From contig SOER01000029.1 of assembly GCA_021646405.1 (NCBI GenBank), positions 1 through 40,854 on the forward strand: DNA of 40,854 nt. The letters run 5' to 3'. Shown here piece by piece: positions 16,138-38,620 of the stretch. Under the pieces are notes generated by a model. The model had not been told where the DNA came from, ran no database searches, and was given only the letters and a program-made list of their open reading frames with translations. The translations under genes and the position numbers were made by a program. Origin of the DNA: Candidatus Loosdrechtia aerotolerans. Lineage in GTDB: Bacteria > Planctomycetota > Brocadiia > Brocadiales > Brocadiaceae. The stretch's first letter is position 1. Each line of letters begins with the position of its first letter.

Positions 16138-16497
16138 TTATTGTCCCTGCGGCGGGTAATAGCTTCTGACGCATACCTTAACCAGATCAACAATCTCTTC
16201 GTCTGTCAGCTTGCCCTTATAGCCAGGCATCTTCCCTTTACCATTGGCCACAGAAATAATTAATCTCGAATCGGATACGTTATCTTGCCATTTGCTATTG
16301 GTAAAATTAGGAATTTTGTAGATGAATCGACCGATAAAACAACCTTTTCCACTGACCTTGTGACATTTCCGGCATTCCCTGTCATATACTGCCCAGATGC
16401 CCCCTTTTTCGGATAAGGCCGTTTGTTTAGGATTACATCCGTAGAATAACAAGGCACTAAAAATAAAGATACCCATAAAGGAAGTAATTTTTTTCAT
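16138..16497 (-). CDS. monohaem c-type cytochrome, probable lipoprotein
   Basis: A 119-residue protein starting MKKITSFMGIFIF. The signal peptide ends at LFYGC, a plausible lipobox, so it may be lipid-anchored facing the periplasm. It has one haem site CRKCH (about residues 44-48) and a downstream Met in KGKMPGYKGKLTDEEI that would be the sixth ligand. This is the class I cytochrome c pattern with GxL/MPxY near the C-terminus. AGGAGA precedes the ATG at 16497; an upstream in-frame ATG at 16566 is less likely. It probably carries electrons in a respiratory chain; its partner is unknown. Confidence 0.85.
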   Translation of the reverse strand: MKKITSFMGIFIFSALLFYGCNPKQTALSEKGGIWAVYDRECRKCHKVSGKGCFIGRFIYKIPNFTNSKWQDNVSDSRLIISVANGKGKMPGYKGKLTDEEIVDLVKVCVRSYYPPQGQ

Positions 16498-16602
16498 CTT
16501 TCTCTCCTGTGATAATTCTTTGTGTTTGTTTTTAATTAACTTTGTGAGTTTACCATAAAACAGCATATATTCAAGTCTCTTATCCTTAATATTGTGATAA
16601 AT

Positions 16603-16656
16603 TTAACACAAAATTAATAATTCCTTTACACTGCCTTAATATAAAAAATGTATTAT
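16603..16656 (+). promoter_or_regulatory. Pho box 1 and promoter
   Basis: Four hexamers at 11-bp period: TTAACA 16603, TTAATA 16614, TTTACA 16625, TTAATA 16636. A -10 hexamer TATTAT is at 16651-16656, starting 10 bases after the last repeat ends. The pattern resembles PhoP operators (TTAACA-type repeats with 5-bp spacers). It lies upstream of the zinc-ribbon gene at 16805. Three further promoters in this window share the exact geometry. Confidence 0.75.
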
Positions 16657-16804: not shown

Positions 16805-17119
16805 ATGATGATGAACGCATATTTTGTATGTCCAAACTGTGGTAACGATAAGGAATTTAGGATTTTTACGAGCAGCTTTCAGGTCGTCAGACAGTCGCCT
16901 GAGTTAGGGAAACGTATAGACGAAAGCGATGTCTTACCCAATTTACAGCAGAAAGATAATTATATTGAATGCCAGTTGTGTCTTCGGAGGTTTGAATATG
17001 AGAATGCCGCAACTATCGGCAAAAAGTACATTCAAACCAGCTTACGCCTTTGCAAAATGAAGTGCGAACCACCAAAACAGGGTGACCAAATTCCAGGCGA
17101 AAAACAACCAACCGTGTGA
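16805..17119 (+). CDS. zinc-ribbon protein of the Pho cluster
   Basis: A 104-residue soluble protein with Cys pairs CPNC (about residues 9-12) and CQLC (about 57-60), likely binding one zinc, then a basic segment with a further Cys. Family not recognised. AAGGAG precedes the ATG well. Transcription should come from Pho box 1, about 150 bp upstream. The CheW-like gene follows after 67 bp containing a small hairpin (8-bp arms GTGTGATT around the stop codon), so co-transcription is likely. Unrelated to the zinc ribbon at 780. Confidence 0.75.
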   Translation: MMMNAYFVCPNCGNDKEFRIFTSSFQVVRQSPELGKRIDESDVLPNLQQKDNYIECQLCLRRFEYENAATIGKKYIQTSLRLCKMKCEPPKQGDQIPGEKQPTV

Positions 17120-17723: not shown

Positions 17724-17855
17724 GTCTGCAACTCTCTGGAATTTCTGATATCACCTTGAGTTCTGAAGAAAGGCCTCTGAAAAATTTTTAGGACAATGTT
17801 GATAAACAAGTATTTACAAACGCCTAGTCACCGTCTATTCTGTGAGGTGCCTTTT

Positions 17856-18074
17856 ATGAAATTAGAGCTTTTGAACAGCTTCCTTAAAGACAGATGGATG
17901 GAATTTAATCCGTCTTTGTTTTATGAAAGACTGGCTCGGTGGATACTCAGTGTATTAATCCTTGCCATCCTTTCAAGTATGATGGGTGGCGCTGTAATTA
18001 CCATCCTTCATTTAAATATTCCCCCAGTATTAAGCATCTGTAAGAAGTTTAACACAAAATTAACAGTTCCTTAA
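17856..18074 (+). CDS. small single-span membrane protein, possibly a truncated gene
   Basis: The 72-residue frame begins MKLELLNSFLKDRWMEFNPS, followed by one strong hydrophobic segment (WILSVLILAILSSMMGGAVI). GAGGTG lies 6 bases before the ATG. The hydrophilic start plus first helix recalls the N-terminus of PsiE-like membrane proteins, which would be longer, but the resemblance is weak. The frame ends inside Pho box 2, so the 3' part looks random and the gene may be a remnant. Not firmly identified. Confidence 0.4.
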   Translation: MKLELLNSFLKDRWMEFNPSLFYERLARWILSVLILAILSSMMGGAVITILHLNIPPVLSICKKFNTKLTVP

Positions 18075-18102
18075 TACTTCCTTCATATACAAAATTTATC
18101 AT
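18049..18102 (+). promoter_or_regulatory. Pho box 2 and promoter
   Basis: Hexamers TTAACA 18049, TTAACA 18060, TTAATA 18071, TTCATA 18082, exactly 11 bp apart. The -10 TATCAT is at 18097-18102, starting 10 bases after the last repeat. The next gene, the 22-mer repeat protein, starts nearly 400 bp downstream, so the leader would be long and contain the palindromes at 18238 and 18381. It probably drives the cluster 18496-26042. Confidence 0.75.
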
Positions 18103-18495: not shown

Positions 18496-19143
18496 ATGAC
18501 GGATAATGAAACTACAAACAATACCACATGTGGTAAAGAAGGGTTAGGCAAGATAGGTACACAGGTCAAAGACGGCATAATCGGCTGCTTAAAGGGCATA
18601 AATGAAATCGAGGCTGAAATTGTAACCCTTGTAAGAAGCACTGTTTCCAATACCTTTAAGACAACGGGCGATGTGACCCGGGAGAGTGTGAATGTCACAA
18701 AGGATGTGCTGAAGGGCGCAATGGAAGCCACGTCGGAGGTGGGGGCAGGTCTTATGGTGAGCACGAAAAGCGTCGCAAAGGGCGTTGTTATGGGGGTAAA
18801 TGATGTCGGCGGCGATGTCCTGACGGCTACGGAACTGACGGTAAAGGGAGCAGTTAAAGGTGCCTATGAGACTGGGGCAGATGTGGCGGTGGTGGCACGA
18901 AGGGCCGTGGATGGCGTTATCGAAGCAACCAAAGAGATAGGTGGAAATGCCGAAGAGACGGCAAAGGTGGCGGTGACGGATGCGATTGAAGCTGCAAGTG
19001 CTATTGGAAATACCGCTGTGAATTCCGCCAAGGGTATACTTATCGGTGTAGTTGAAGGGGTAAAGGAAGTTGCAGGTTCTACCCTTCCTAAGAAAAGAGG
19101 ACGCTCTGAACCTTCTGAGACTTCTGAGTCTCGAGAAGAATAG
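18496..19143 (+). CDS. protein of eight tandem 22-residue repeats
   Basis: A 215-residue protein whose residues 25-200 divide without gap into eight units of exactly 22 residues, roughly [KR]xxVxGAxEATxEIGxxxxxTA, all predicted helical. Each unit equals two 11-mers, the period of amphipathic helices in apolipoproteins, synucleins and group-3 LEA proteins, so it may lie on a membrane or coat a surface, or be a stress protein. There is no signal peptide. The tail is polar (SEPSETSESREE). TAAGGAGG precedes the ATG. It is followed by the P-type ATPase gene after 47 bp and lies downstream of Pho box 2. Family not recognised. Confidence 0.85.
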   Translation: MTDNETTNNTTCGKEGLGKIGTQVKDGIIGCLKGINEIEAEIVTLVRSTVSNTFKTTGDVTRESVNVTKDVLKGAMEATSEVGAGLMVSTKSVAKGVVMGVNDVGGDVLTATELTVKGAVKGAYETGADVAVVARRAVDGVIEATKEIGGNAEETAKVAVTDAIEAASAIGNTAVNSAKGILIGVVEGVKEVAGSTLPKKRGRSEPSETSESREE

Positions 19144-19190: not shown

Positions 19191-22100
19191 ATGCAAAAAA
19201 CTCTGGTACAACCTATCCACACATCAGTCAATGGAAGGGCAAGGTTTAAAGTAGGCGGTCTCTATCGTTCTGAGCTTTTGGGAAAACACCTCGAATCAAG
19301 ACTTTCGAACCATGATAGAATAAATGGGTTTTCCATAAATGTATTAACCGGGAACATCCTTATATTTTACAACTCCACCAGTACTCATTACGCAGTTGCA
19401 AGTTTCATTGAAGGTTTTGTATTAGAGTATAAAAAGACAAACGGTAACCGACTGTTCGAGACGAAAGACCGGAAAAAACAAAAGGGGAGACGGCTGTCTT
19501 CAGATGAAAGACGTTCGGGCGCGAAAAGTCTCGGTGTACAGAGGGGGAAAAAGCTCGGAAAGCTCACTGTTGGTACCGCAGGCCAAAGGATAGAATCATG
19601 GCATCTCAAGGGCGTCGATTATGCTTTAAATCTTTTTGCAACCGATAAAGATAGGGGGTTGTCTCGCAGCGTTACCGTTGAACGTTTAAGAAAATACGGT
19701 TACAATGTCATGCCGGAATCACCGCCGCGGTCTGCCTTCAGCATTTTATTTGGGCAGTTCAAATCCCTTCCCGTGATGATCCTGCTGGTTGCTGCCGGTC
19801 TTTCGATATTTACGGGTGGTGTGGTGGATGCATTGGTTATCATGAGTGTCGTTGCAATTAATGCAACAATCGGTTACATCACAGAAAATCAGGCAGAGAG
19901 AATTATTAATTCTCTGAAGAGGTTGATCAAGCCATCTTCCCTTGTTATCAGGGCCGGGGTTACAAAAGAAATTCGTGCGGAAGAGGTTGTCTTAGGGGAT
20001 ATTATGGTCCTCAGGGCCGGGGTATATATAACAGCGGATTGCAGGGTCATTGATGCAAGCCTTCTGAGTATAGATGAGTCTGCCCTAACAGGAGAGAGCC
20101 GGCCGGTTACGAAGACATCGGAGACCATTCCGATGAACCCGGAAGGAAGGGATATTCCTATTGCAGACAGAGTGAATATGGTTTATGCAGGTACCCTGGT
20201 CACCGGCGGGCAGGGGTTTGCAATCGTGGTAGCAACCGGGCGATTTACCGAGATTGGCAGGATACAGATGCTCGTCGGAGAGGCAAAACCCCCTGAAACC
20301 CCCATGGAGAGGCAGTTGAATAAGATTGGCAAACAACTGGTTGCTGTCGGGGGTGGTGTATGTGGAATAGTTTTTCTTATGGGGCTTTTGAGGGGTTACG
20401 GCTTGCTTGAAATGTTGAAAACATCCATATCTCTCGCAGTTGCCGCGATTCCTGAGGGGTTACCGACCGTAGCCACGACAACCCTGACCATTGGTATTAT
20501 GAGTATGCGAAAGCGTAACGTCATTATCCGGCACCTTGATGCCGTTGAGGCGCTCGGTTCAATTCAGACTATCTGCCTTGACAAGACCGGAACGATCACC
20601 ATGAACAGGATGACCGTTGTGGAGATATACGCCGGTATGAAACGACTGCAGGTATGCGACGGTAAGTATCTAAAAGAAGGTGAACCCATTAATCCACATG
20701 CATGTAAGGAACTACTGAAACTCATCCATGTAACAACGCTGTGTAATGAGACCGAGGTAAGCATTCAAAGAGACGGCTATGCGTTGAAGGGGTCTCCAAC
20801 AGAAAGTGCTTTTATTACGATGGCAATAAGCTCCGGGATTGAGGTAGTAGCACTGAGGGAAAGATACCCTCTTTTACGGATAAAGCACCGTGCGGAAAGA
20901 CATAATTTCATGATTACTGTCCACCAGTCCGTTCAGCATAGGAAATTTATCGCTTTAAAAGGAAATCCCTCTGAAGTTCAGGCAATGTGCAGCTGGCAAA
21001 TAAGGGATGGTGAAAAGATTCCCATCACAGATGAGGACAGGGTGATTCTTGAGAAAGAAAATGAGCGCATGGCTGGTGATGCCTTGAGGGTGCTGGGCGT
21101 TGCATATCAGCATACAGAAAATGATCAGGAAGAGCCCGATCTGCAAAACGGTTTTACCTGGCTTGGACTTATCGGCATGGCAGACCCGGTAAGGAGGGGA
21201 GTCAAGGAATTGATCAATGAGTTTCACGGTGCCGGTATTGATACGGTTATGATAACCGGTGACCAGACACCCACAGCATATGCAATAGGAAGAGAGCTAA
21301 ATCTGAGTGGAAACGGTGAGCTGAAAATCCTTGAATCAGCCCATCTTGCAAATATTGATCCGGAGGTATTGAAGGTGCTCTGCGGGAAAGTACATGTGTT
21401 TGCAAGGGTCAGTCCTGCTCATAAATTACAAATCGTTCAGGCCCTCCAGCGGGCTGGCAAGGTAGTTGCCATGACAGGAGACGGAATCAATGATGGACCT
21501 GCATTGAAGGCGGCTGATATTGGGATTGCGATGGGACACTCGGGAACCGATGTTGCCCGGGAAGTGGCGGATATCGTACTTGAAGATGACAATCTTGAAA
21601 CTATGGTTACTGCTGTAAGCCATGGAAGGACAATCTATAGTAATATCAGGAAATCGCTCCATTTTCTGCTATCCACAAACATGAGCGAGATAATCGTCAC
21701 ATTTGGTGCCATTGCCGGGGGCATCGGACAGCCTCTCAATGCTATGCAACTTCTCTGGATAAACCTTATGTCAGACGTATTCCCCGCCATTGCCCTTTCT
21801 CTGGAGCTACCGGAACCAGATGTGCTGAATAAACCGCCCAGGAATCCGAATGAGCACATTATCAAAGGAACCGATTTTAAGAGGATCACCTTAGAATCAT
21901 CAACGCTCTCGACGGGTGCGCTCGGCGCTTATATGTATGGTATGATGCGATACGGAATCGGACCAAGGGCAAGCACCATGGCCTTTATGAGCCTTACCAC
22001 TGCCCAGTTGCTTCATGCAGTGAGCTGCCGTTCAGAAACGCATAGTATTTTTGACAGATATAGAAACCGTCCGTCGTTACCGCCAAATAAATATCTGAAC

Positions 22101-22283
22101 ATCGCCCTTGGGGGCTCTCTGATTCTGCAGGTGTTAACCCTTGCCGTTCCTGGGTTAAGAAATATCCTGAGACTTTCACCCATTGGTATCCTTGACGGCA
22201 TCGTGGTTGGAGGCAGTGCGATCTTACCACTCTTCATAAATGAGGGTACGAAAAGAGGCGAGGAAAGGGGAACGTTACCATGA
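19191..22283 (+). CDS. P-type cation-transporting ATPase with N-terminal HMA-like domain
   Basis: A 1030-residue ATPase. Residues about 10-80 look like an HMA_2-type ferredoxin-like domain (GRARFKVGGL) without CxxC. A charged linker (85-135) follows, then the cation-ATPase N-terminus. The actuator has TGES (300-303), membrane helix 4 has PEGLP (421-425) as in Ca2+/Mn2+-type P2 pumps, the phosphorylation site is Asp464 in DKTGT, and the hinge is MTGDGINDGPALKAADIG. Several C-terminal helices end the protein. It probably exports Ca2+ or another divalent cation. The metK-like ATG overlaps its stop codon (4 bp), so the two are translationally coupled. The Shine-Dalgarno is weak. Confidence 0.9.
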   Translation: MQKTLVQPIHTSVNGRARFKVGGLYRSELLGKHLESRLSNHDRINGFSINVLTGNILIFYNSTSTHYAVASFIEGFVLEYKKTNGNRLFETKDRKKQKGRRLSSDERRSGAKSLGVQRGKKLGKLTVGTAGQRIESWHLKGVDYALNLFATDKDRGLSRSVTVERLRKYGYNVMPESPPRSAFSILFGQFKSLPVMILLVAAGLSIFTGGVVDALVIMSVVAINATIGYITENQAERIINSLKRLIKPSSLVIRAGVTKEIRAEEVVLGDIMVLRAGVYITADCRVIDASLLSIDESALTGESRPVTKTSETIPMNPEGRDIPIADRVNMVYAGTLVTGGQGFAIVVATGRFTEIGRIQMLVGEAKPPETPMERQLNKIGKQLVAVGGGVCGIVFLMGLLRGYGLLEMLKTSISLAVAAIPEGLPTVATTTLTIGIMSMRKRNVIIRHLDAVEALGSIQTICLDKTGTITMNRMTVVEIYAGMKRLQVCDGKYLKEGEPINPHACKELLKLIHVTTLCNETEVSIQRDGYALKGSPTESAFITMAISSGIEVVALRERYPLLRIKHRAERHNFMITVHQSVQHRKFIALKGNPSEVQAMCSWQIRDGEKIPITDEDRVILEKENERMAGDALRVLGVAYQHTENDQEEPDLQNGFTWLGLIGMADPVRRGVKELINEFHGAGIDTVMITGDQTPTAYAIGRELNLSGNGELKILESAHLANIDPEVLKVLCGKVHVFARVSPAHKLQIVQALQRAGKVVAMTGDGINDGPALKAADIGIAMGHSGTDVAREVADIVLEDDNLETMVTAVSHGRTIYSNIRKSLHFLLSTNMSEIIVTFGAIAGGIGQPLNAMQLLWINLMSDVFPAIALSLELPEPDVLNKPPRNPNEHIIKGTDFKRITLESSTLSTGALGAYMYGMMRYGIGPRASTMAFMSLTTAQLLHAVSCRSETHSIFDRYRNRPSLPPNKYLNIALGGSLILQVLTLAVPGLRNILRLSPIGILDGIVVGGSAILPLFINEGTKRGEERGTLP

Positions 22284-23473
22284 AAGAGGATTTCATCTTT
22301 ACATCGGAATCAGTAACAGAAGGACATCCGGATAAACTTTGTGATTTGATAAGTGATGCAATAGTAGACCACTTTCTGCAACAGAATCCTTTATCGATGA
22401 TAATTGCAGAATGTGCAGTATCTACTTCTATTGTATTCATTGCGGCGAGGTTTGTCTCTAATGTGATTGCGGATTTCCCTCACATAGCTCGTCAGGTCAT
22501 AAATCAGGTTGGGTATGAACAACATTCCTTCAATGGAAAGACCTGCGGCATTGTGACGAGCCTGAAAGAGATGCCGGATGGTGAGCAGCGTTGCTTTGAC
22601 GAAAGAACGTTGTCAGACGAGGAAATTGAGAGAATACCGGTGAAGAATCAGGTTACCGCTTTCGGTTTTGCCTGCAATCAGACGCCGGCATTCATGCCGC
22701 TGCCCATATGGCTTGCCCATAGACTTGCAAGAAAACTCACCTCTGCAAGGCTCCAAAAAATACTCCCGTATCTTGAACCAGACGGCAAGACACAGGTAGG
22801 GATTGAATACAGGAACCGGAGACCTTTCAGAATTCATAGCATAACAGTCATCGCAAGCCAGAAGAGGTCTGAAGAACCGGCGTTACGGAAACTGGAAAGT
22901 GATATCAGAGAGGCCGTTATTGAGTCCGTCTTTCGCGATGAACCCATTAAGCCTGACGACAGAACGAGGATATTTGTCAATCCCGACGGCCCCTTTCTTA
23001 TGGGTGGTCCATCCGTCCATTCCGGACTTACAGGGCGAAAAACCGCCATAGACACGTATGGGGAATATGCACGGCATAGTGGGGCAGCCCTCAGCGGCAA
23101 GGATCCGACGAGGATTGATAGGGTAGGCGCGTATGCCGCCCGGTATGCGGCAAAAAATGTGGTTGCCGCCGGTCTTGCCGATGAATGTGAAGTTCAACTC
23201 AGTTACTCCATCGGTTTGTCAAGACCGGTAAGCATTCAGGTGGAAACGTTTGGCACGGGGAAAATATCCGATGACGAAATTGCCAGACTCATTGAGAGAC
23301 ATTTCGATTTTCGCCTTGCAAGTATTATCAAGCAGTTTAATCTCAGATATCTGCCATCACTGGTAAGGGGCGGGTTTTACAAGAAGCTTGCGGCCTATGG
23401 CCATGTGGGCAGGATGGATATCGGGCTGCCGTGGGAATTAATCGATAAGGCCAATCTCCTGAAGTGCATATAA
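22280..23473 (+). CDS. divergent S-adenosylmethionine synthetase homologue (MetK-like)
   Basis: A 397-residue MetK-fold protein. It keeps ESVTEGHPDKLCD (His16, Asp18), FVNPDGPF, GLTGRKTAIDTYG, the SGKDPTRIDR/AYAARY segment and the C-terminal AAYGHVGR. It deviates at classical active-site positions: the GAGDQG loop is PVKNQV (Asn123 for Asp), the GEITT loop is AARFV, and the Asp before GLTGRK is His247. By eye, methionine/metal-binding acidic residues are therefore changed. It may bind ATP/SAM without normal catalysis, or use a different substrate. It overlaps the ATPase gene by 4 bp, which is odd for housekeeping metK; a canonical copy is expected elsewhere. Confidence 0.85.
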   Translation: MKEDFIFTSESVTEGHPDKLCDLISDAIVDHFLQQNPLSMIIAECAVSTSIVFIAARFVSNVIADFPHIARQVINQVGYEQHSFNGKTCGIVTSLKEMPDGEQRCFDERTLSDEEIERIPVKNQVTAFGFACNQTPAFMPLPIWLAHRLARKLTSARLQKILPYLEPDGKTQVGIEYRNRRPFRIHSITVIASQKRSEEPALRKLESDIREAVIESVFRDEPIKPDDRTRIFVNPDGPFLMGGPSVHSGLTGRKTAIDTYGEYARHSGAALSGKDPTRIDRVGAYAARYAAKNVVAAGLADECEVQLSYSIGLSRPVSIQVETFGTGKISDDEIARLIERHFDFRLASIIKQFNLRYLPSLVRGGFYKKLAAYGHVGRMDIGLPWELIDKANLLKCI

Positions 23474-24802: not shown

Positions 24803-25054
24803 ATGAATTCTACTCTCTTATATGAAAACGAGGTGGAAGAAAAACTTCATCGAAATGCCATTCTGGCTCTTGTAAGGGAAACAGGGATGCCTGCAGAGGC
24901 TGTAATTCCGTTGTATGAATCGGTATTTGAAAGGTTAAAACACTATGCAAAAATCAAAGAATTTTTACCTATTCTTGTAAGCAGGGAAGTAAAAGATATA
25001 CTATTACATAGAGTAAATTTAAGTCTGATGGAGTATCGAGATGATTACCTATAA
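24803..25054 (+). CDS. small DUF3562-like protein
   Basis: An 83-residue, mostly helical cytoplasmic protein: an N-terminal helix, a segment PAEAVIPLYESVFERLKHYAKI and a tail KEFLPILVSREVKDILL. The pattern of a short helix-turn then LYE...A.IKdFLpilvsR.V.d.L resembles DUF3562 proteins as I remember them. Function unknown. It overlaps the HMA-like gene by 14 bp and so is very likely co-translated with it. Confidence 0.6.
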   Translation: MNSTLLYENEVEEKLHRNAILALVRETGMPAEAVIPLYESVFERLKHYAKIKEFLPILVSREVKDILLHRVNLSLMEYRDDYL

Positions 25055-25355
25055 TATCGTTCACCACATTGATGGTCGCATACGGCTAAAGGTGCCTTTC
25101 ATAAAAAAACTCATGGGTGTCAGAAACTTGCCTGAACATATCAAAAACCTCTCATTTATTTCCATACCGTCGGGAATAAAGGATATCCGTGCTAATCCAT
25201 TTGCAGGAAGCCTTGTAATTATTTATGAACCGAAAGAAGTGGATGTCATAGAATTCATTAAAACTACCTTTGATTCTCTTTCATCCAATGACGAGATACA
25301 GAAAATTGTAAGGGAATTAAACCAAAATTATTCACGTATGCCGTATTTTTTTTAA
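25041..25355 (+). CDS. stand-alone HMA_2-like domain protein
   Basis: A 104-residue protein starting MITYNIVHHIDGRIRLKVP, with a ferredoxin-like pattern (VHHIDGRIRLKV strand, helix, GIKDIRANPFAGSLVIIYE strands, helix). The same GRxRxKV start appears in the N-terminal domain of the P-type ATPase upstream (HTSVNGRARFKVGGL, then INVLTGNILIFY). There is no CxxC, so it does not look like a classical copper chaperone. A partner or regulatory role toward the ATPase is plausible (inference). Genes 24803 and 25041 overlap. Confidence 0.7.
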   Translation: MITYNIVHHIDGRIRLKVPFIKKLMGVRNLPEHIKNLSFISIPSGIKDIRANPFAGSLVIIYEPKEVDVIEFIKTTFDSLSSNDEIQKIVRELNQNYSRMPYFF

Positions 25356-26352: not shown

Positions 26353-26406
26353 TTAATGAATAATTCATATCTCCTTAATAATTCCTTAACAGAAGAAACT
26401 TATAAT
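26353..26406 (+). promoter_or_regulatory. Pho box 3 and promoter
   Basis: Hexamers TTAATG 26353, TTCATA 26364, TTAATA 26375, TTAACA 26386, strictly 11 bp apart, then a consensus -10 TATAAT at 26401-26406 starting 10 bases after the last repeat. It is 40 bp upstream of the EAL gene start. Confidence 0.8.
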
Positions 26407-26445
26407 TTTTAATCAAAGTGTCACAAACCTGTAATGGAGGTGTGT

Positions 26446-27309
26446 ATGGCTGCAAAATTGAGACGGAACAGAAAGGATGATGGAAATGGTTCTTCATCAG
26501 AGCGTGATTTTCGTGAAATTAACGGGCGAAAAATCCCTGGATTGAATAATAATTCCATTCCAGTCTATTTTCAGCCGATCTTTTCTGCAAAGGATGGCAC
26601 TATCTATGGCTATGAAGCATTAACACGGATAGAGGGGGAAAATTCATCCGTCGCTGCAAGTAAACTATTTCAGAAGGCAAAACAAATAAATGCAGTATCT
26701 TCTCTCGATTACCTGTACCTGGCTAATGTTGTCAGAAGGGCAGCAGATCTTGGATTGACACGGAAGGATATCTTTCTCTTTATCAATGTATCTCCTGATA
26801 CCTTAACAAGCCCTGTTTACAGGGTTGATGAAATTGGCGGGCTTATAGAAAGATGGGGAATGGTAAAGGGAAAGATTGTTTTTGAGGTAACGGTGGAGAG
26901 CGTCATTCGGAACTATGATTTTCTAAAACAGGCAATTACCTATTATAAAAATAGTGGATACCTGATAGCCATCGACAACTTTAGAGCCAGCTATAAAGGT
27001 TTAAAGATGCTCTCATTCATTGAGCCTGACATAATAAAAATTGATAGACAATTTTTAAATACAATGCGGATAAATTTCAGCTTCATTTACCGTGTTATCA
27101 GTGTATGCCAGAGAATTGGTATAAAAGTTATAGCCACAGGTATAGAGAAAGAAGAAGAGATGGAGGATGTTTTGACTATGGATATAGAATTACTCCAGGG
27201 GGACCATCTCGGCAAGCCTTTTTCTCTTACCAGCGGTGAATTATCAACAATTCCGGAGCGGCAAAGAAAAAACAAGGAATCTGCGAGGAAAGGCGTTCGT
27301 TGTAAGTAA
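26446..27309 (+). CDS. degenerate EAL-domain protein
   Basis: A 287-residue protein; EAL fold from about residue 40. It keeps YEALTR (57-61), INVSPDTL (Asn114), FEVTVES and IIKIDRQFL (Lys198). The metal-binding DDFG loop reads DNFR (177-180), and AEGVE near residue 230 reads ATGIE, so two acidic residues needed for c-di-GMP hydrolysis are lost. It probably acts as a c-di-GMP or protein receptor, not an enzyme. The ATG at 26446 is chosen because GGAGG at 26436 is correctly spaced for it; the ATG at 26434 would contain that site. Transcribed from Pho box 3. Confidence 0.85.
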   Translation: MAAKLRRNRKDDGNGSSSERDFREINGRKIPGLNNNSIPVYFQPIFSAKDGTIYGYEALTRIEGENSSVAASKLFQKAKQINAVSSLDYLYLANVVRRAADLGLTRKDIFLFINVSPDTLTSPVYRVDEIGGLIERWGMVKGKIVFEVTVESVIRNYDFLKQAITYYKNSGYLIAIDNFRASYKGLKMLSFIEPDIIKIDRQFLNTMRINFSFIYRVISVCQRIGIKVIATGIEKEEEMEDVLTMDIELLQGDHLGKPFSLTSGELSTIPERQRKNKESARKGVRCK

Positions 27310-27394: not shown

Positions 27395-27448
27395 TTAACG
27401 CAATATTAACAATTTCTTAATAATTTCTTAACATTACATTTTTACAAT
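27395..27448 (+). promoter_or_regulatory. Pho box 4 and promoter
   Basis: Hexamers TTAACG 27395, TTAACA 27406, TTAATA 27417, TTAACA 27428 at 11-bp period, and -10 TACAAT at 27443-27448, starting 10 bases after the last repeat. About 335 bp upstream of the cNMP-binding gene, implying a long leader with hairpins at 27515-27542 and about 27640-27676. Confidence 0.8.
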
Positions 27449-31425: not shown

Positions 31426-33783
31426 ATGAAAAGTTTGAAGAGAAGAAAGTTTACAGATATGGCTGCCCACTGGGTAATTACACTCGGTGGAGCGGCTACC
31501 GTTTTTGTTGTGCTTGCCCTGTTTTTCTTTATCTTTTTAGAAGTTTATCCGCTTTTACAGGGTGCTAAGGTAACAAAGGAAAATACCTATACTTTACAGG
31601 ATAAGGCAATTTCCATAGGAGTGGATGATCACCAGGAGGTTGCCTTTGCCGTTTATAATAACGGCAATATAGAGTTTATCTCACTATCAAATGGAGAGGT
31701 CTTTAAAAAATATCAAATAGCAGGTCTTAACGGTTCTTCCGTAACACATCAGGATGCAACGAATTTCCCCCATAAAACCAATGCACAGGGTAATTACATC
31801 ACATCCGTTAGTCAAGATCGCGATCGTCTTGCTTTGGGAACAAATGACGGGAGGATCTTAACGGTATCTATCAACTTTTCTGAATCGTTTGACAATGAGA
31901 AAAGGATTATTCTCCCTGAGATATCAGAGGCAGAAACTGTGATAGTTAACACTGAAGGAATAGGGCTCAATTCTATTACATCCAGGGGGGATGAAAGCGC
32001 AACAGTTACGGCAGTCCATACAGAAGATGGAAAATTAGTGCTCATATCCTCAGAAGTCGAAAGGACGCTCTTTGGTGAGGGGGAAAGAAAGGAGATTAAG
32101 AAGGATATTACCGATCTCGTTGTACAGTATAGCTTAAACCAAATTACCCCCCCTTCGCAAGAGGGGGGAGGAAAACTTGAGACTGGTACAATGCTTGTAT
32201 CACATAACCCGATACATGTAACTGAACAGGAAAACAAAATTGAAATAACCTCTCTGGCGCTTGACCTTTTTATGGAAAACCTTTACGTGGGGACATCTTC
32301 AGGTGAGTTGTTCCACATAAACGTGAGGGACAGAAGTAACCCCTATCTTGTAGAAAAGGTAAGAGTCTCTGACAAAGCAATTACCGCATTAGGTTTTTTA
32401 TTGGGAGACGTTTCGCTCGTCACCGGTGATGCCGGCGGTGGAGTGAATGTATGGATGCAGGTAAGAGACGAGATGTCATCTTCAGGATGGGCTTTAAAAA
32501 AGGTGCATACCCTTACATCTCACAATGCCAAAGTTATCGCAGTTGCTTCATCAATGAGGGATAAGGGTTTTGTGACAATAGCAACTGACGGAACAATCCA
32601 CCTCAACCATGCAACTTCCGAACAGACACTTTTAAACTTTGAGACAAAATCTATCCTTACAACTCTTGTCTTTTCACCAAAGGCTAACGGTATTCTGGTG
32701 ACCGATTCAAATAACCGTCTTTTTCAATGGATTATTTCAAACCCACACCCGGAAACGACCTTAAAAACCCTGTTTGGACCGGTATGGTATGAGGGATACG
32801 AAAAACCGGAGTTTATCTGGCAGTCTACGGGAGGTACAGACGATTTTGAACCGAAGCTGAGCCTTGTACCATTGATCTTTGGCACTATTAAAGGTACGGT
32901 ATATGCATTGATCATCGCAGTACCTATTGGCATCCTTGCGGCGCTGTATACTTCCCAGTTTCTTCATAATTCCTTAAAAATAATAAAGCCGGTTATTGAA
33001 ATCATGGCGGCGCTTCCCAGCGTCATCCTTGGTTTTCTTGCCGGACTGTGGCTTGCGCCATTATTGGAGAGAATATTTCCTGCGATCATTATCATGCCAT
33101 TTTTTATTACCCTTTCCATTGTCATAGCCCTTGTTATCTGGAAAATCCTGCCAGTCTTTGGAAAGGGTTGGTACAGGTATGGGACGGAGGCGCTCGTTTT
33201 GATACCTTTTCTCATTGGAGCGGTATATGTATCTCTCCAGCTTGGCGGTGTCTTTGAGTCCGTCTTTTTGGGAGGAGATTACAGAGAATGGTTTTCCAAT
33301 ATCCTTGGATTACGGTATGACCAGAGGAACGCAGTTATCGTGGGTATTGCTATGGGGTTTGCCGTGATACCCCTTATTTTTACCATATCAGAAGATGCCA
33401 TGAGCAATGTTCCCAATAGCCTCCGATCAGCTTCGCTGGCGCTTGGTGCAACTCCATGGCAGACGGCTGTCAGGATAGTTTTACCGACAGCAAGCCCGGG
33501 AATTTTTTCGGCCGTCATGATTGGTTTTGGAAGGGCAGTGGGCGAGACGATGATCGTCCTTATGGCCACCGGCAATACTCCCATCATGGACTGGAATTTG
33601 TTTAATGGTTTCAGGGCGCTTTCTGCAAACATAGCGGTTGAGATACCGGAAGCACCGTTTGGAGGAACGCTTTACCGGGTGCTGTTTCTTGCTGCATTGC
33701 TCCTTTTTATAACAACCTTTGTCGTCAATACCCTTGCAGAAATGGTAAGACAAAGGATGAGGTTAAGGTACAGCAAGTTATGA
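31426..33783 (+). CDS. pstC: phosphate ABC transporter permease PstC, with large extracytoplasmic propeller-like domain
   Basis: A 785-residue permease. One membrane helix (about 14-42) is followed by a roughly 420-residue domain with repeating beta segments (for example LALGTNDGRILTVS, ITALGFLLGDVSLVTGDAGGGVNVW, VTIATDGTIHL) that resembles a WD40-type propeller and probably lies in the periplasm. Residues about 490-785 hold the usual PstC helices with the EAA loop region (SLRSASLALGATPWQTAVRIVLPTASPGI). Classical PstC has about 300 residues; long forms are known in other bacteria. It is 3 bp after pstS and overlaps pstA by 4 bp. Confidence 0.92.
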   Translation: MKSLKRRKFTDMAAHWVITLGGAATVFVVLALFFFIFLEVYPLLQGAKVTKENTYTLQDKAISIGVDDHQEVAFAVYNNGNIEFISLSNGEVFKKYQIAGLNGSSVTHQDATNFPHKTNAQGNYITSVSQDRDRLALGTNDGRILTVSINFSESFDNEKRIILPEISEAETVIVNTEGIGLNSITSRGDESATVTAVHTEDGKLVLISSEVERTLFGEGERKEIKKDITDLVVQYSLNQITPPSQEGGGKLETGTMLVSHNPIHVTEQENKIEITSLALDLFMENLYVGTSSGELFHINVRDRSNPYLVEKVRVSDKAITALGFLLGDVSLVTGDAGGGVNVWMQVRDEMSSSGWALKKVHTLTSHNAKVIAVASSMRDKGFVTIATDGTIHLNHATSEQTLLNFETKSILTTLVFSPKANGILVTDSNNRLFQWIISNPHPETTLKTLFGPVWYEGYEKPEFIWQSTGGTDDFEPKLSLVPLIFGTIKGTVYALIIAVPIGILAALYTSQFLHNSLKIIKPVIEIMAALPSVILGFLAGLWLAPLLERIFPAIIIMPFFITLSIVIALVIWKILPVFGKGWYRYGTEALVLIPFLIGAVYVSLQLGGVFESVFLGGDYREWFSNILGLRYDQRNAVIVGIAMGFAVIPLIFTISEDAMSNVPNSLRSASLALGATPWQTAVRIVLPTASPGIFSAVMIGFGRAVGETMIVLMATGNTPIMDWNLFNGFRALSANIAVEIPEAPFGGTLYRVLFLAALLLFITTFVVNTLAEMVRQRMRLRYSKL

Positions 33784-35378
33784 AAAAAATTTTCAGAACC
33801 GGAAATCCTTATATATGGTTGACGGCTGGAACGCTGACGGTCTGTCTCTTGATGATATGTGGGTTAATTGTGCTCATTATGGTAAATGGGTTCGGCATAT
33901 TCTGGCCTCGCAGGATAGTTCAGTTTACCCTCCAGGATGGTACGGTAGCTTTGGGAGAGATTGCAAAACGGGAGTCTATCCCCCATCAAAAAAATGCTTA
34001 TCGTACAAAGCTGAAAGTTGGCAACAGGGATGTCTATGGGATGGACTTCAGGTGGATAGACAATGCAGATATTGTATCTCAGGATTATCCCGTGCATGTT
34101 TTAGCCTTTGAAAGGCGTGAGTGGGGCAATATGTATGGCTTTTTAAAGGGTTTAAGACAGGATGACGGTGTTAAACCCCTGAGCCTGAAAGGCATGGTGC
34201 CTTTGCTCAAAGAGAGCCAGAATCTTTACAAAAAGATACGGTATATAGAGAAAAAAGAAATTGGTGATATAAGCTACCGGATGGAAAAATCCCGTCTTGA
34301 GTTGAAACGTCTGATGCTGTTACGGCCATCCGAAAAAGTTCAAAAAAAGGTCTCGGTTGTAAGGACCAGTATGGACAATCTGGAAAAAACCTATCGGGAA
34401 AAAGAAGATGCGCTTGCAGGACTTTATTCGAAGGCAAGGGAAAAAGAGGTTGTTGTGCTCCTTGCGGACGGCAAGGAAAAGATTTTGCCTGTTTTTCAGA
34501 TTATCCGTATCTATGCCCCGAATGAGATGGGAATTCTTGCCAAAATGGGTTTTTATACAACAAAATTTTGGGAGTTTATCTGGGAAGAACCGAGGGAGGC
34601 GAATACAGAAGGTGGTGTGTTTCCCGCTATTTTTGGGACGGTTATGATGGTCCTGATCATGAGTATTGCAGTCGTTCCACTCGGTGTATTGACGGCGGTA
34701 TATCTCAAAGAATATGCCAGCGATAATTTTATTGCCAGGCTTGTCAGGATATCAGTGAGTAACCTGGCGGGCGTGCCATCTATCGTCTTTGGTGTTTTTG
34801 GCCTCGGTTTTTTTATCTATTTTATCGGGGGAGGTGTAGACAGATTGTTTTTCTCGGAAGCCCTGCCGACTCCTACTTTTGGAACAGGTGGAATTCTGTG
34901 GGCATCGCTTACCCTGGCGCTCATGACGGTACCGGTGGTTGTGGTGGCAACGGAGGAGGGTCTATCTGCTGTACCCATGTCCATACGAGAGGGCTCGTAT
35001 GCGCTTGGCGCTACCAAGATTGAAACCCTATGGAAAGTGGTGATTCCTCAGGCAACCCCTGGTATACTTACGGGTACTATTCTGGCTATGGCAAGGGCTG
35101 CCGGAGAGGTTGCACCCCTGATGATTACCGGTGTTGTGAAGCTGGCGCCCTCCCTGCCAATTGACAGTCACTTTCCCTATATCCATTTGGAGAGGAAATT
35201 TATGCACCTGGGGTTTCATATTTACGATGTCGGATTCCAATCGCCCAATGTGGAAGCGGCCATCCCCATGGTCTACACCACAACACTCGTTTTGCTCTTT
35301 ACGGTGCTTGTGTTAAACCTTACGGCCATTGTGGTGAGAAATAAGCTGAAGAGATGGTACAGCACAGGGGCGATGTAG
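33780..35378 (+). CDS. pstA: phosphate ABC transporter permease PstA, long form
   Basis: A 532-residue permease. One N-terminal helix (about 13-38) and a roughly 220-residue extracytoplasmic insertion with a coiled-coil part (about 140-215) precede the membrane core. The core contains the EAA-type loop (SIREGSYALGATKIETLWKVVIPQATPGILTG) that contacts PstB and ends with a helix and KRWYSTGAM. Normal PstA has about 280 residues. The start overlaps the pstC stop codon (ATGA). In a usual pst operon pstB follows at once; here an insertion sequence lies between. Confidence 0.93.
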   Translation: MKKIFRTGNPYIWLTAGTLTVCLLMICGLIVLIMVNGFGIFWPRRIVQFTLQDGTVALGEIAKRESIPHQKNAYRTKLKVGNRDVYGMDFRWIDNADIVSQDYPVHVLAFERREWGNMYGFLKGLRQDDGVKPLSLKGMVPLLKESQNLYKKIRYIEKKEIGDISYRMEKSRLELKRLMLLRPSEKVQKKVSVVRTSMDNLEKTYREKEDALAGLYSKAREKEVVVLLADGKEKILPVFQIIRIYAPNEMGILAKMGFYTTKFWEFIWEEPREANTEGGVFPAIFGTVMMVLIMSIAVVPLGVLTAVYLKEYASDNFIARLVRISVSNLAGVPSIVFGVFGLGFFIYFIGGGVDRLFFSEALPTPTFGTGGILWASLTLALMTVPVVVVATEEGLSAVPMSIREGSYALGATKIETLWKVVIPQATPGILTGTILAMARAAGEVAPLMITGVVKLAPSLPIDSHFPYIHLERKFMHLGFHIYDVGFQSPNVEAAIPMVYTTTLVLLFTVLVLNLTAIVVRNKLKRWYSTGAM

Positions 35379-35558: not shown

Positions 35559-37007
35559 TTATTTGAAACGGAAATCAAGTTTAAAATTGTACAGCCATGG
35601 AATACGAGGGTCAATGTTTTCACTCATGAACTTTTGAGGAAGATATTCATAATGTTTTTTTAAGAGATGTACATTCGGTGCGTTATAGTAAGTAATAACA
35701 ATGGTATCATCCGTTACTCGTATATCTCCGTCCAAGCCGTTGAAGAGAGATTTTGCAAGATGGCTGGAATCCCATTGGACAATTGGTTCTCCGAGTCGTT
35801 GCCTGAGTTGGTGAATAGAGGCCTGTGCGATCAATGCCAATGTCATATGTCCGTATCGGATATTGATGTTGGTTGTGCCAGCCCGAGACCAACCCAGGGC
35901 CTGATTTGCATTGAAAAATTCTTCAACGTGCCAGCGACTTGGGTAATGAAGGGTCAGATCGTCTACTTCTTGACGGTCTGCAGTTGAGAGAAATGCTTTA
36001 TATTGATACTGATCGGGTTTTTCTCCGCAGCGTTGAGTAATTTGGTACAAGGGCATCTGAAGACTACCGTTTCCTGGGTTATAGGGGCTCTTATGTGTAG
36101 CAAAGCCAGCCCATCCGGGAACAAACTGTTCGTGGGGGATATTTTTGAGTTTCTTTTTCAGTGCTGGTTGATTGGGTAATTGGACTAATAAATCAAAATG
36201 ACTCCGATTATGGATATTGTTGATTACATCTACGGTGAAATGTTCACCGTCCGCTACTACAAGAGATTTGTTTTGCTGGGGACTGAGGATGGCGGAGGCT
36301 AAATCGAGAAGTTCCGGGGTTGCCTGGGAGACTGTCTTTGAGGCTGTACCCGTGGTAAAGCAGAGCGGTTGTTTGTTGAAGGTATCGAGGCAGAAAAAGG
36401 TTTGCGCCATTTTGATTGGTTTTGGTGCTTTATCAGTTTGGTGGCGACGCATTTGGCGTTTACTGTAAGAAGGTATCCGGTGAGGATCAATAGCAAGTAC
36501 CTGCGCATTGTAGTGGCCACTGGCTCGTCGAATCTTTCCCAGGGCAATTTGTAAGGCTTGCGCTTCTGCCACGGTATGAGCATTGAGGAGTTCGTGTATA
36601 GCCTTGTCGGTTGCCACAAATGGTAATCCATTGGCCAGTTCGAAGCCTTTTTGACTTAAAGAGCGTGCCTGTCGTACACCAGTAACGCACAAGGCGGCCT
36701 CGTGTACCAGTTGAAGAGCCAGGCGCGGTTCGACCTGCGGTGTGGATTTCCTGGTCCATCCACAGAGCAGGTCCCATGTGCCTATGCGGAGATGCTCTGG
36801 TATAAGGAGCCAGATACCAACCATGGTACCGGAAACTTTATTGGCCAAAAGTTGCCTGATGCCCCGTTCAATACTGGTGGTATCGCACGGCTCAAGCCGG
36901 CATCGTGTTTTCGTGCGATGGGTATCAACCTTCTGGTCTGTCCGATCAGGTCGATAGGTGTATAGTTTTTTTTTGTAAACCGAATTGTTCAATGATACGT
37001 TCAACAC
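35559..37007 (-). CDS. DDE transposase, main frame of the IS
   Basis: An open frame of 482 residues. Catalytic candidates are Asp174 (VLAIDPHR), Asp253 (LVVADGEHF) and Glu362 in YPSRWHVEEFF; Tyr355-x2-Arg358-x3-Glu362 fits the YREK-like signature of IS4-type enzymes. The first residues (to about 12) are probably not native. The natural product should be a fusion with the HTH frame across the A9 run (36966-36974), because the sequence after the run continues that protein in the +1 frame. Exact IS family not determined. Confidence 0.8.
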   Translation of the reverse strand: MLNVSLNNSVYKKKLYTYRPDRTDQKVDTHRTKTRCRLEPCDTTSIERGIRQLLANKVSGTMVGIWLLIPEHLRIGTWDLLCGWTRKSTPQVEPRLALQLVHEAALCVTGVRQARSLSQKGFELANGLPFVATDKAIHELLNAHTVAEAQALQIALGKIRRASGHYNAQVLAIDPHRIPSYSKRQMRRHQTDKAPKPIKMAQTFFCLDTFNKQPLCFTTGTASKTVSQATPELLDLASAILSPQQNKSLVVADGEHFTVDVINNIHNRSHFDLLVQLPNQPALKKKLKNIPHEQFVPGWAGFATHKSPYNPGNGSLQMPLYQITQRCGEKPDQYQYKAFLSTADRQEVDDLTLHYPSRWHVEEFFNANQALGWSRAGTTNINIRYGHMTLALIAQASIHQLRQRLGEPIVQWDSSHLAKSLFNGLDGDIRVTDDTIVITYYNAPNVHLLKKHYEYLPQKFMSENIDPRIPWLYNFKLDFRFK

Positions 37008-37834: not shown

Positions 37835-38620
37835 ATGATTATGGAAAAAGAGAGCATAACAGTCCCAGAACCGATCGTTAATATCATAGACCTGGTCCTT
37901 TATTATGGCAAAACGAAGGCGTTGAAAGGGATAAACCTGGATGTTTCAAAAAAAAAGATAACCTCTTTTATCGGTCCGTCCGGGTGCGGGAAGTCCACAT
38001 TAATCCGGTGTTTGAACCGTCTGAACGATCTTATAGAAAGCGTAACAATTGAAGGGAGTATCAAAATAGACGGCAGGGATATCTATGATCCTGCAATTGA
38101 TGTTACTGATCTCAGAAGAAGAGTTGGCATGGTCTTTCAAAAGCCTAATCCTTTTCCAAAAACCATTTATGAAAATGTAATATTTGGTCCCAGGATTGTG
38201 GGGATTAAGAAAAGGGGTGTACTGGACGAAATTTGCGAAAAGGCGCTGAAAAAGGCAGCCCTCTGGGAAGAAGTAAAAGAGAGGCTCCATACGAATGCCC
38301 TCGACCTTTCCGGCGGCCAGCAACAGCGAATTTGTATTGCCAGGGCGATAGCCATGGAACCCGAGATTATCCTCCTTGACGAACCATGCTCTGCCCTCGA
38401 CCCCATTGCCACAGCTAAGATAGAGGATATGCTCGTGGAACTCAAAAAGGATTATACCGTTATCATTGTCACTCATAATATGCAGCAGGCAGCCAGGATA
38501 TCGGACTTCACAGGCTTCTTTATGCTTGGAGAACTTGTTGAGTTTAACGTTACCACCGGGATATTCACGAACCCACGGGAAAAACAGACGGAAGACTATA
38601 TTACGGGGAGGTTTGGGTAA
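37835..38620 (+). CDS. pstB: phosphate ABC transporter ATP-binding protein
   Basis: A 261-residue ABC ATPase. Walker [10 protein letters not shown] (about 47-55), Q-loop [16 protein letters not shown] (a PstB hallmark), signature LSGGQQQR, Walker [14 protein letters not shown] and the H-loop ([13 protein letters not shown]). It energises PstCA. No strong ribosome site is seen before the ATG. It is cut off from pstA by the IS and palindromes, so it may depend on read-through or a promoter in the 37665-37834 gap; none is obvious. Confidence 0.96.

Follow-up and report, generated by a model that had tools for sequence, protein, structure and literature searches.

A 22-residue-repeat protein gene downstream of a putative Pho-box array in Candidatus Loosdrechtia aerotolerans encodes a candidate coat of lipid surfaces

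The locus raises the question of what a small protein made of regular helical repeats does in an anammox planctomycete, where its gene lies beside a cation pump. The initial annotation had suggested a lipid-surface or a stress-coat role under phosphate starvation. The window analysed here is the whole stretch of 40,854 nucleotides. The repeat gene (18496..19143, + strand) is an open frame of 215 aa with an aaggagg ribosome site upstream, and a scan of one genome per species identified 76 homologous loci, mostly 44-87% identical.

Eight consecutive 22-residue units without insertions had been claimed for residues 25-200 (18568..19095, + strand), with the consensus [KR]xxVxGAxEATxEIG. The consensus is roughly correct and the coordinates are exact, residue 25 corresponding to base 18568 and residue 200 ending at 19095. 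The periodicity and the unit statistics agree with this division. The identity autocorrelation of the protein gave a z of 6.9 at lag 22 and 5.2 at lag 44, with the adjacent lags at background. Cutting residues 25-200 into 22-mers gave a pairwise BLOSUM score of z ~17; the other cut lengths, including 18-21 and 23-25, were at background, except for 33 and 44, which are multiples of 11. Each of the eight units scored better than its own shuffles (0 to 5 of 2000 equally good), the weakest being unit 2 (residues 47-68). Residues 25-196 were free of indels in 72 of the 74 homologs, and specific residues were strongly conserved and invariant across phyla. The eight-unit, 22-residue repeat is confirmed as real. 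As the DNA at the repeat-gene site has no detectable tandem repeat, the repeat is old.

The hydrophobic moment of the protein was maximal at 98.0-98.5 degrees, where 98.18 is expected for a helix of three turns per 11 residues, and reached 0.347 against a maximum of 0.222 in 500 shuffles. The family average peaked at the same angle. The 11-residue period of the apolipoprotein and synuclein type, proposed from the repeat length, is thus quantitatively borne out. The non-polar face is continuous and formed of valine, alanine, glycine and threonine; residues 25-200 are rich in V, A, G and T, with two aromatics in 176 residues. No transmembrane segment was found in the repeat protein, and a transmembrane role is unlikely at a maximum 19-residue hydropathy of 1.23.

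The sequence and profile searches, a check that the initial annotation had proposed, returned no confident match to a characterised family of other function. No Pfam or NCBIfam model passed for the window protein. A sequence search of the PDB returned only two matches, one to a designed helical bundle (E 1.8e-4) and the other weak, and both were put down to composition. Among 74 members of the family, sub-threshold Pfam similarity was seen to Senescence (20 members), Phasin_2 (13 members) and Synuclein (one member, E 0.011, short of family membership), and no member matched the perilipin family. For Senescence (PF06911), the window protein scored 15 bits against a cut-off of 24.6; one member had an E of 2.2e-6. 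The best observed score to the phasin models PF05597 and PF09361 was 19.1 bits, against 24.9. These similarities lie below the cut-off where bits were seen, and are best taken as hints rather than as membership.

AlphaFold, run on the window protein with 74 homologs, predicts a folded helical stack (pLDDT 79.8, pTM 0.69) with long helices at both termini and a middle of one helix and a glycine turn per 22 residues, although such models do not separate the bundle at rest from a form opened by lipid. For the senescence domain of spartin, AlphaFold is reportedly unreliable (PMC10705495). A Burkholderiales member was modelled with matching helix boundaries (pTM 0.71). The top Foldseek matches to the models were designed helical repeat proteins, with no match below 1e-3.

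Homologs were present in Nitrospirota, Desulfobacterota and other 'Deltaproteobacteria', Methylomirabilota, Brocadiaceae, and Beta- and Gammaproteobacteria, and no plasmid relatives were found. Only five of 62 genomes of the window's order carry the gene, and its closest relatives beyond its own family of organisms are in other phyla, which together suggest that it has spread horizontally. Some copies show features of their own. In Nitrospirota homologs (L011-L019 and others), the C-terminus often closes with a basic motif, e.g., TTKxRxRRGE, after a variable linker, and this motif may bind a partner. Desulforhabdus has a second, longer paralog (296 aa, L057:4978-5865) directly before the main copy. 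Noviherbaspirillum (G064) has three paralogs (L117, L118 and L120) of equal score and identity to the query, and L117 lies near a transposase gene and a universal-stress gene; these copies may therefore be mobile.

The repeat gene occurs in two genomic contexts. In the first, which comprises 70 loci (several of them on contigs cut short), it is accompanied by a P2A-type ATPase with an HMA_2 tail (62 loci), DUF5132 (59), an HMA_2 membrane protein (62) and a SAM synthetase (49), mostly in one fixed order around the repeat gene. In the window, the pump gene (19191..22283, + strand) encodes a P2A-type cation-transporting P-type ATPase according to Pfam and NCBIfam, with an N-terminal HMA_2 domain lacking CxxC, Cation_ATPase_N and _C domains, and the motifs PEGLP at 421 and DKTGT at 464. 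It scored best to PMR1-type calcium ATPases and far lower to P1B models. Its stop is overlapped by the start of the SAM synthetase gene (22280..23473, + strand; Pfam). Pfam and the neighbourhood survey also identified two recurring cluster neighbours, encoding a DUF3562 protein (24803..25054, + strand) and an HMA_2 protein (25041..25355, + strand). A search of the window's genome, which is 99.4% complete, found no DUF5132, although the other four genomes of the order that carry the repeat gene have it. The SAM synthetase is an extra, cluster-specific copy, as cluster genomes hold another one elsewhere (40-47% identical) and three relatives without the cluster have only the non-cluster one; in this comparison, the G009 contig stops short of where the gene would be expected. 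Across phyla, the cation pump is accompanied by a second SAM synthetase dedicated to the cluster. Use of SAM for betaine lipids was rejected, with BtaA (PF11899) absent from 21 of 21 genomes tested. Of the pump-context loci, 16 also hold pstS or pstCA.

Control by phosphate was suggested by arrays of TTAAYA half-sites at an 11-bp period. These are read as Pho boxes because PHO boxes have been reported to consist of directly repeated 11-nucleotide units (PMC6283541). The array of four TTAAYA-type half-sites at 18049..18087 (+ strand) lies ~410-450 bp upstream of the repeat gene; the array at 27395..27433 (+ strand), upstream of the window's cNMP-porin O/P-pst block, served as a positive control. 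Two more are present, one at 16603-16641 between a divergent cytochrome c gene (16138-16566, − strand) and an ORF (16805-17119, + strand), and one at 26353-26391, 43 bp ahead of a gene for an EAL-domain (c-di-GMP phosphodiesterase-like) protein (26434-27309), where phosphate may control c-di-GMP. No three-half-site array with up to two mismatches was found in 60 dinucleotide shuffles of the window. Genome-wide, arrays with at most one mismatch number six, namely these four and two outside the window, one immediately ahead of phoU and the other ~180 bp ahead of a second phosphate-porin/pstS/pstC operon (phoU and the operon genes having been identified from a reading of the translations).

A matrix trained solely on the phoU/pst arrays (those at phoU, C58 and 27395) gave the 18049..18087 array before the repeat gene a score of 33.7, the highest score among shuffles being 13.8. 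With this matrix, plus-strand arrays equalled in no more than 1 of 100 shuffles were found in 29 of 67 pump-context loci, where one or two were expected; as the loci are related, the 29 are not independent events. Many of the Pho boxes of the homologs lie 99-145 bp before the repeat gene, often at ~110 bp, and seven lipid-context loci (described below) had no such arrays. The suggested link to phosphate starvation is thus backed, at the level of sequence, by the arrays that precede this gene and many of its homologs, and the gene is a probable member of the Pho regulon. The window is not clearly enriched in the E. coli-type CTGTCAT Pho box, with 7 matches, a count that 5 of 100 shuffles reached, and a scan for sigma-70 sites and terminators did no better than chance. 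ORF 17796-18074, which overlaps the array upstream of the repeat gene and matched no family, is unlikely to be a real gene. An array resembling the one before the EAL-domain gene comes after a DUF445 gene in Brocadia (L010, near 12393). Within the window, a DDE transposase gene (35559-37007) separates pstA (33780-35378) from pstB (37835-38620).

The second context is that of Oxalobacteraceae and other Burkholderiales. Here, the repeat gene adjoins a WS/DGAT (wax-ester/triacylglycerol synthase) gene at 12 loci, in 12 of 15 Burkholderiales genomes; the remaining three include two with short contigs. An acyl-CoA reductase, a PF05597 phasin and an AMP-ligase are often neighbours, in variable orientation, and in two genomes paralogs lie ~5 kb from phaC. 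There is no pump alongside these homologs, and the pump-type cluster is missing. In a quick tree, six lipid-context members formed a separate clade (SH-aLRT 100), and their function may therefore not carry over to the window protein. The lipid-surface role proposed in the initial annotation is accordingly supported in part: the WS/DGAT, phasin and acyl-CoA reductase neighbours speak for it, and the separation of those homologs from the window's own lineage speaks against it. No WS/DGAT was found in the 21 pump-context genomes tested, and PhaC was found in only two of them. For the window's own cell, triacylglycerol or wax droplets were rejected as the coated surface because it has no WS/DGAT, and PHA granules because it has no PhaC.

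We consider the chances somewhat better than even that the gene encodes an amphipathic repeat protein that is controlled by phosphate starvation and coats a lipid surface. We prefer this reading since it accounts for both contexts, the pump and the lipid genes. A PhoB-type regulator would switch the repeat gene on under phosphate shortage. The protein at rest would be the helix stack predicted by AlphaFold, which would open or dock to bring its valine/alanine/glycine/threonine face onto lipid, in the manner described for perilipin-type coats. The coated surface in Burkholderiales would be that of neutral-lipid or polyester bodies; in anammox bacteria and Nitrospirota, it may be a membrane or droplet altered in phosphate starvation, near the co-encoded pump. 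Lipid binding, the lipid target and induction by phosphate lack are what we infer; the evidence in favour comprises the 11-residue period, the indel-free repeats, the V/A/G/T composition, the lipid-gene neighbours, the paralogs near phaC, the Pho boxes, the lack of a transmembrane segment, and the sub-threshold Senescence, Phasin_2 and Synuclein similarities. Counting against a coat are the absence of WS/DGAT from 21 of 21 and of PhaC from 19 of 21 pump-context genomes, together with a predicted folded stack and residue conservation beyond what a simple coat needs.

Given that predicted stack, the main rival to the coat is a folded alpha-solenoid, in which each unit is a helix and a glycine turn, and which would bind the HMA_2-tailed P2A pump or the HMA_2 proteins as a scaffold or regulatory partner without coating lipid. 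We regard this as unlikely, yet deserving of serious weight. The helix boundaries shared by AlphaFold models from two clades, the designed helical repeat proteins as nearest folds and the residues invariant across phyla are all consistent with a solenoid, and, within the window's order, exactly those five genomes that have the repeat gene also have the full-length pump, N-terminal extension included. The scaffold accounts for this conservation and co-occurrence but not for the Burkholderiales loci, where the homologs have lipid-storage neighbours and no adjacent pump. Moreover, a solenoid does not need the strong, unbroken 11-residue moment, and Foldseek gave no match better than its 1e-3 level.

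It is less probable still that the cluster builds a Pho-controlled cation or polyphosphate store, similar to an acidocalcisome or a ferrosome, whose membrane the repeat protein shapes or coats; such a store is compatible with either a coat or a scaffold. It would fit the repeated association, in different phyla, of the repeat gene with the pump, the hydrophobic DUF5132 protein and the HMA_2 proteins, and likewise the Pho boxes and the pst genes in 16 loci. Against it, the compartment is a candidate known here from genes, the pump is not of the ferrosome type and the cluster is missing beside the Burkholderiales copies. Ferrosome (fez) clusters are likewise found in several phyla and combine a P-type ATPase with small membrane proteins; they differ in having a P1B-6 pump (FezB), where the cluster studied here has a P2A pump and putative Pho-box control. 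FezC of the ferrosome clusters is a DUF4405-like cytochrome (PMC11334425). There is a similarly slim chance of a bacterial organelle system that has not been described before: a widespread store, bounded by lipid or membrane and under Pho control, to which DUF5132, the HMA_2 proteins, the P2A pump and the extra SAM synthetase would all belong, with the repeat protein as its perilipin-like coat. A soluble stress protectant of the LEA kind, unfolded in water, is very improbable: there is a starvation signal (the Pho box) at the gene and the 11-residue period is known from LEA proteins too, but this valine-rich protein, dominated by V, A and G with a clear and continuous non-polar face, is not strongly hydrophilic, is predicted to be folded and has no LEA family match, and the stress coat of the initial annotation is not favoured.

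As a candidate lipid coat, the repeat protein resembles several known systems. Like perilipin 4, perilipins 1-3, the apolipoproteins and synuclein, it has the 11-residue helical period, indel-free repeats, few aromatics and a non-polar face rich in V, G and T. The Plin4 repeat consists of 33-mers without indels, is rich in T, G and V and has almost no aromatics (PMC5889406). The protein differs from perilipin 4-type coats in its 22-residue unit, bacterial origin, strongly conserved positions and predicted folded stack, and in having no family-level sequence match. It shows the three turns per 11 residues and the insertion-free tandem repeats of an amphipathic 11-mer-repeat coat, its lipid binding being putative. 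Phasins (PF05597 and PF09361) are bacterial granule-surface proteins; PF05597 genes lie near the Burkholderiales homologs and 13 members are weakly Phasin_2-like, whereas the repeat family scores below the curated cut-off and the pump-context genomes mostly lack a PHA synthase. PF06911 of spartin and ERD7 is a helical lipid-droplet-binding domain with weak similarity to 20 of 74 members, although these are below the cut-off where bits were seen and the literature surveyed describes no 22-residue repeat in this domain. The senescence domain targets lipid droplets in plants (PMC8079945).

Coats of the perilipin-like, 11-residue-period kind are best known from eukaryotes. If the preferred reading of a lipid-surface coat is true, a bacterial counterpart across Nitrospirota, Desulfobacterota, anammox Planctomycetota and Burkholderiales would provide a simple model of helix-lipid recognition. 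The Burkholderiales members, one of them from the named strain Noviherbaspirillum autotrophicum TSA66, make the coat idea testable. Through the Pho box and the adjacent cation pump, lipid surfaces and cations would then be linked with phosphate starvation in bacteria that are important in the environment and for the most part uncultured.
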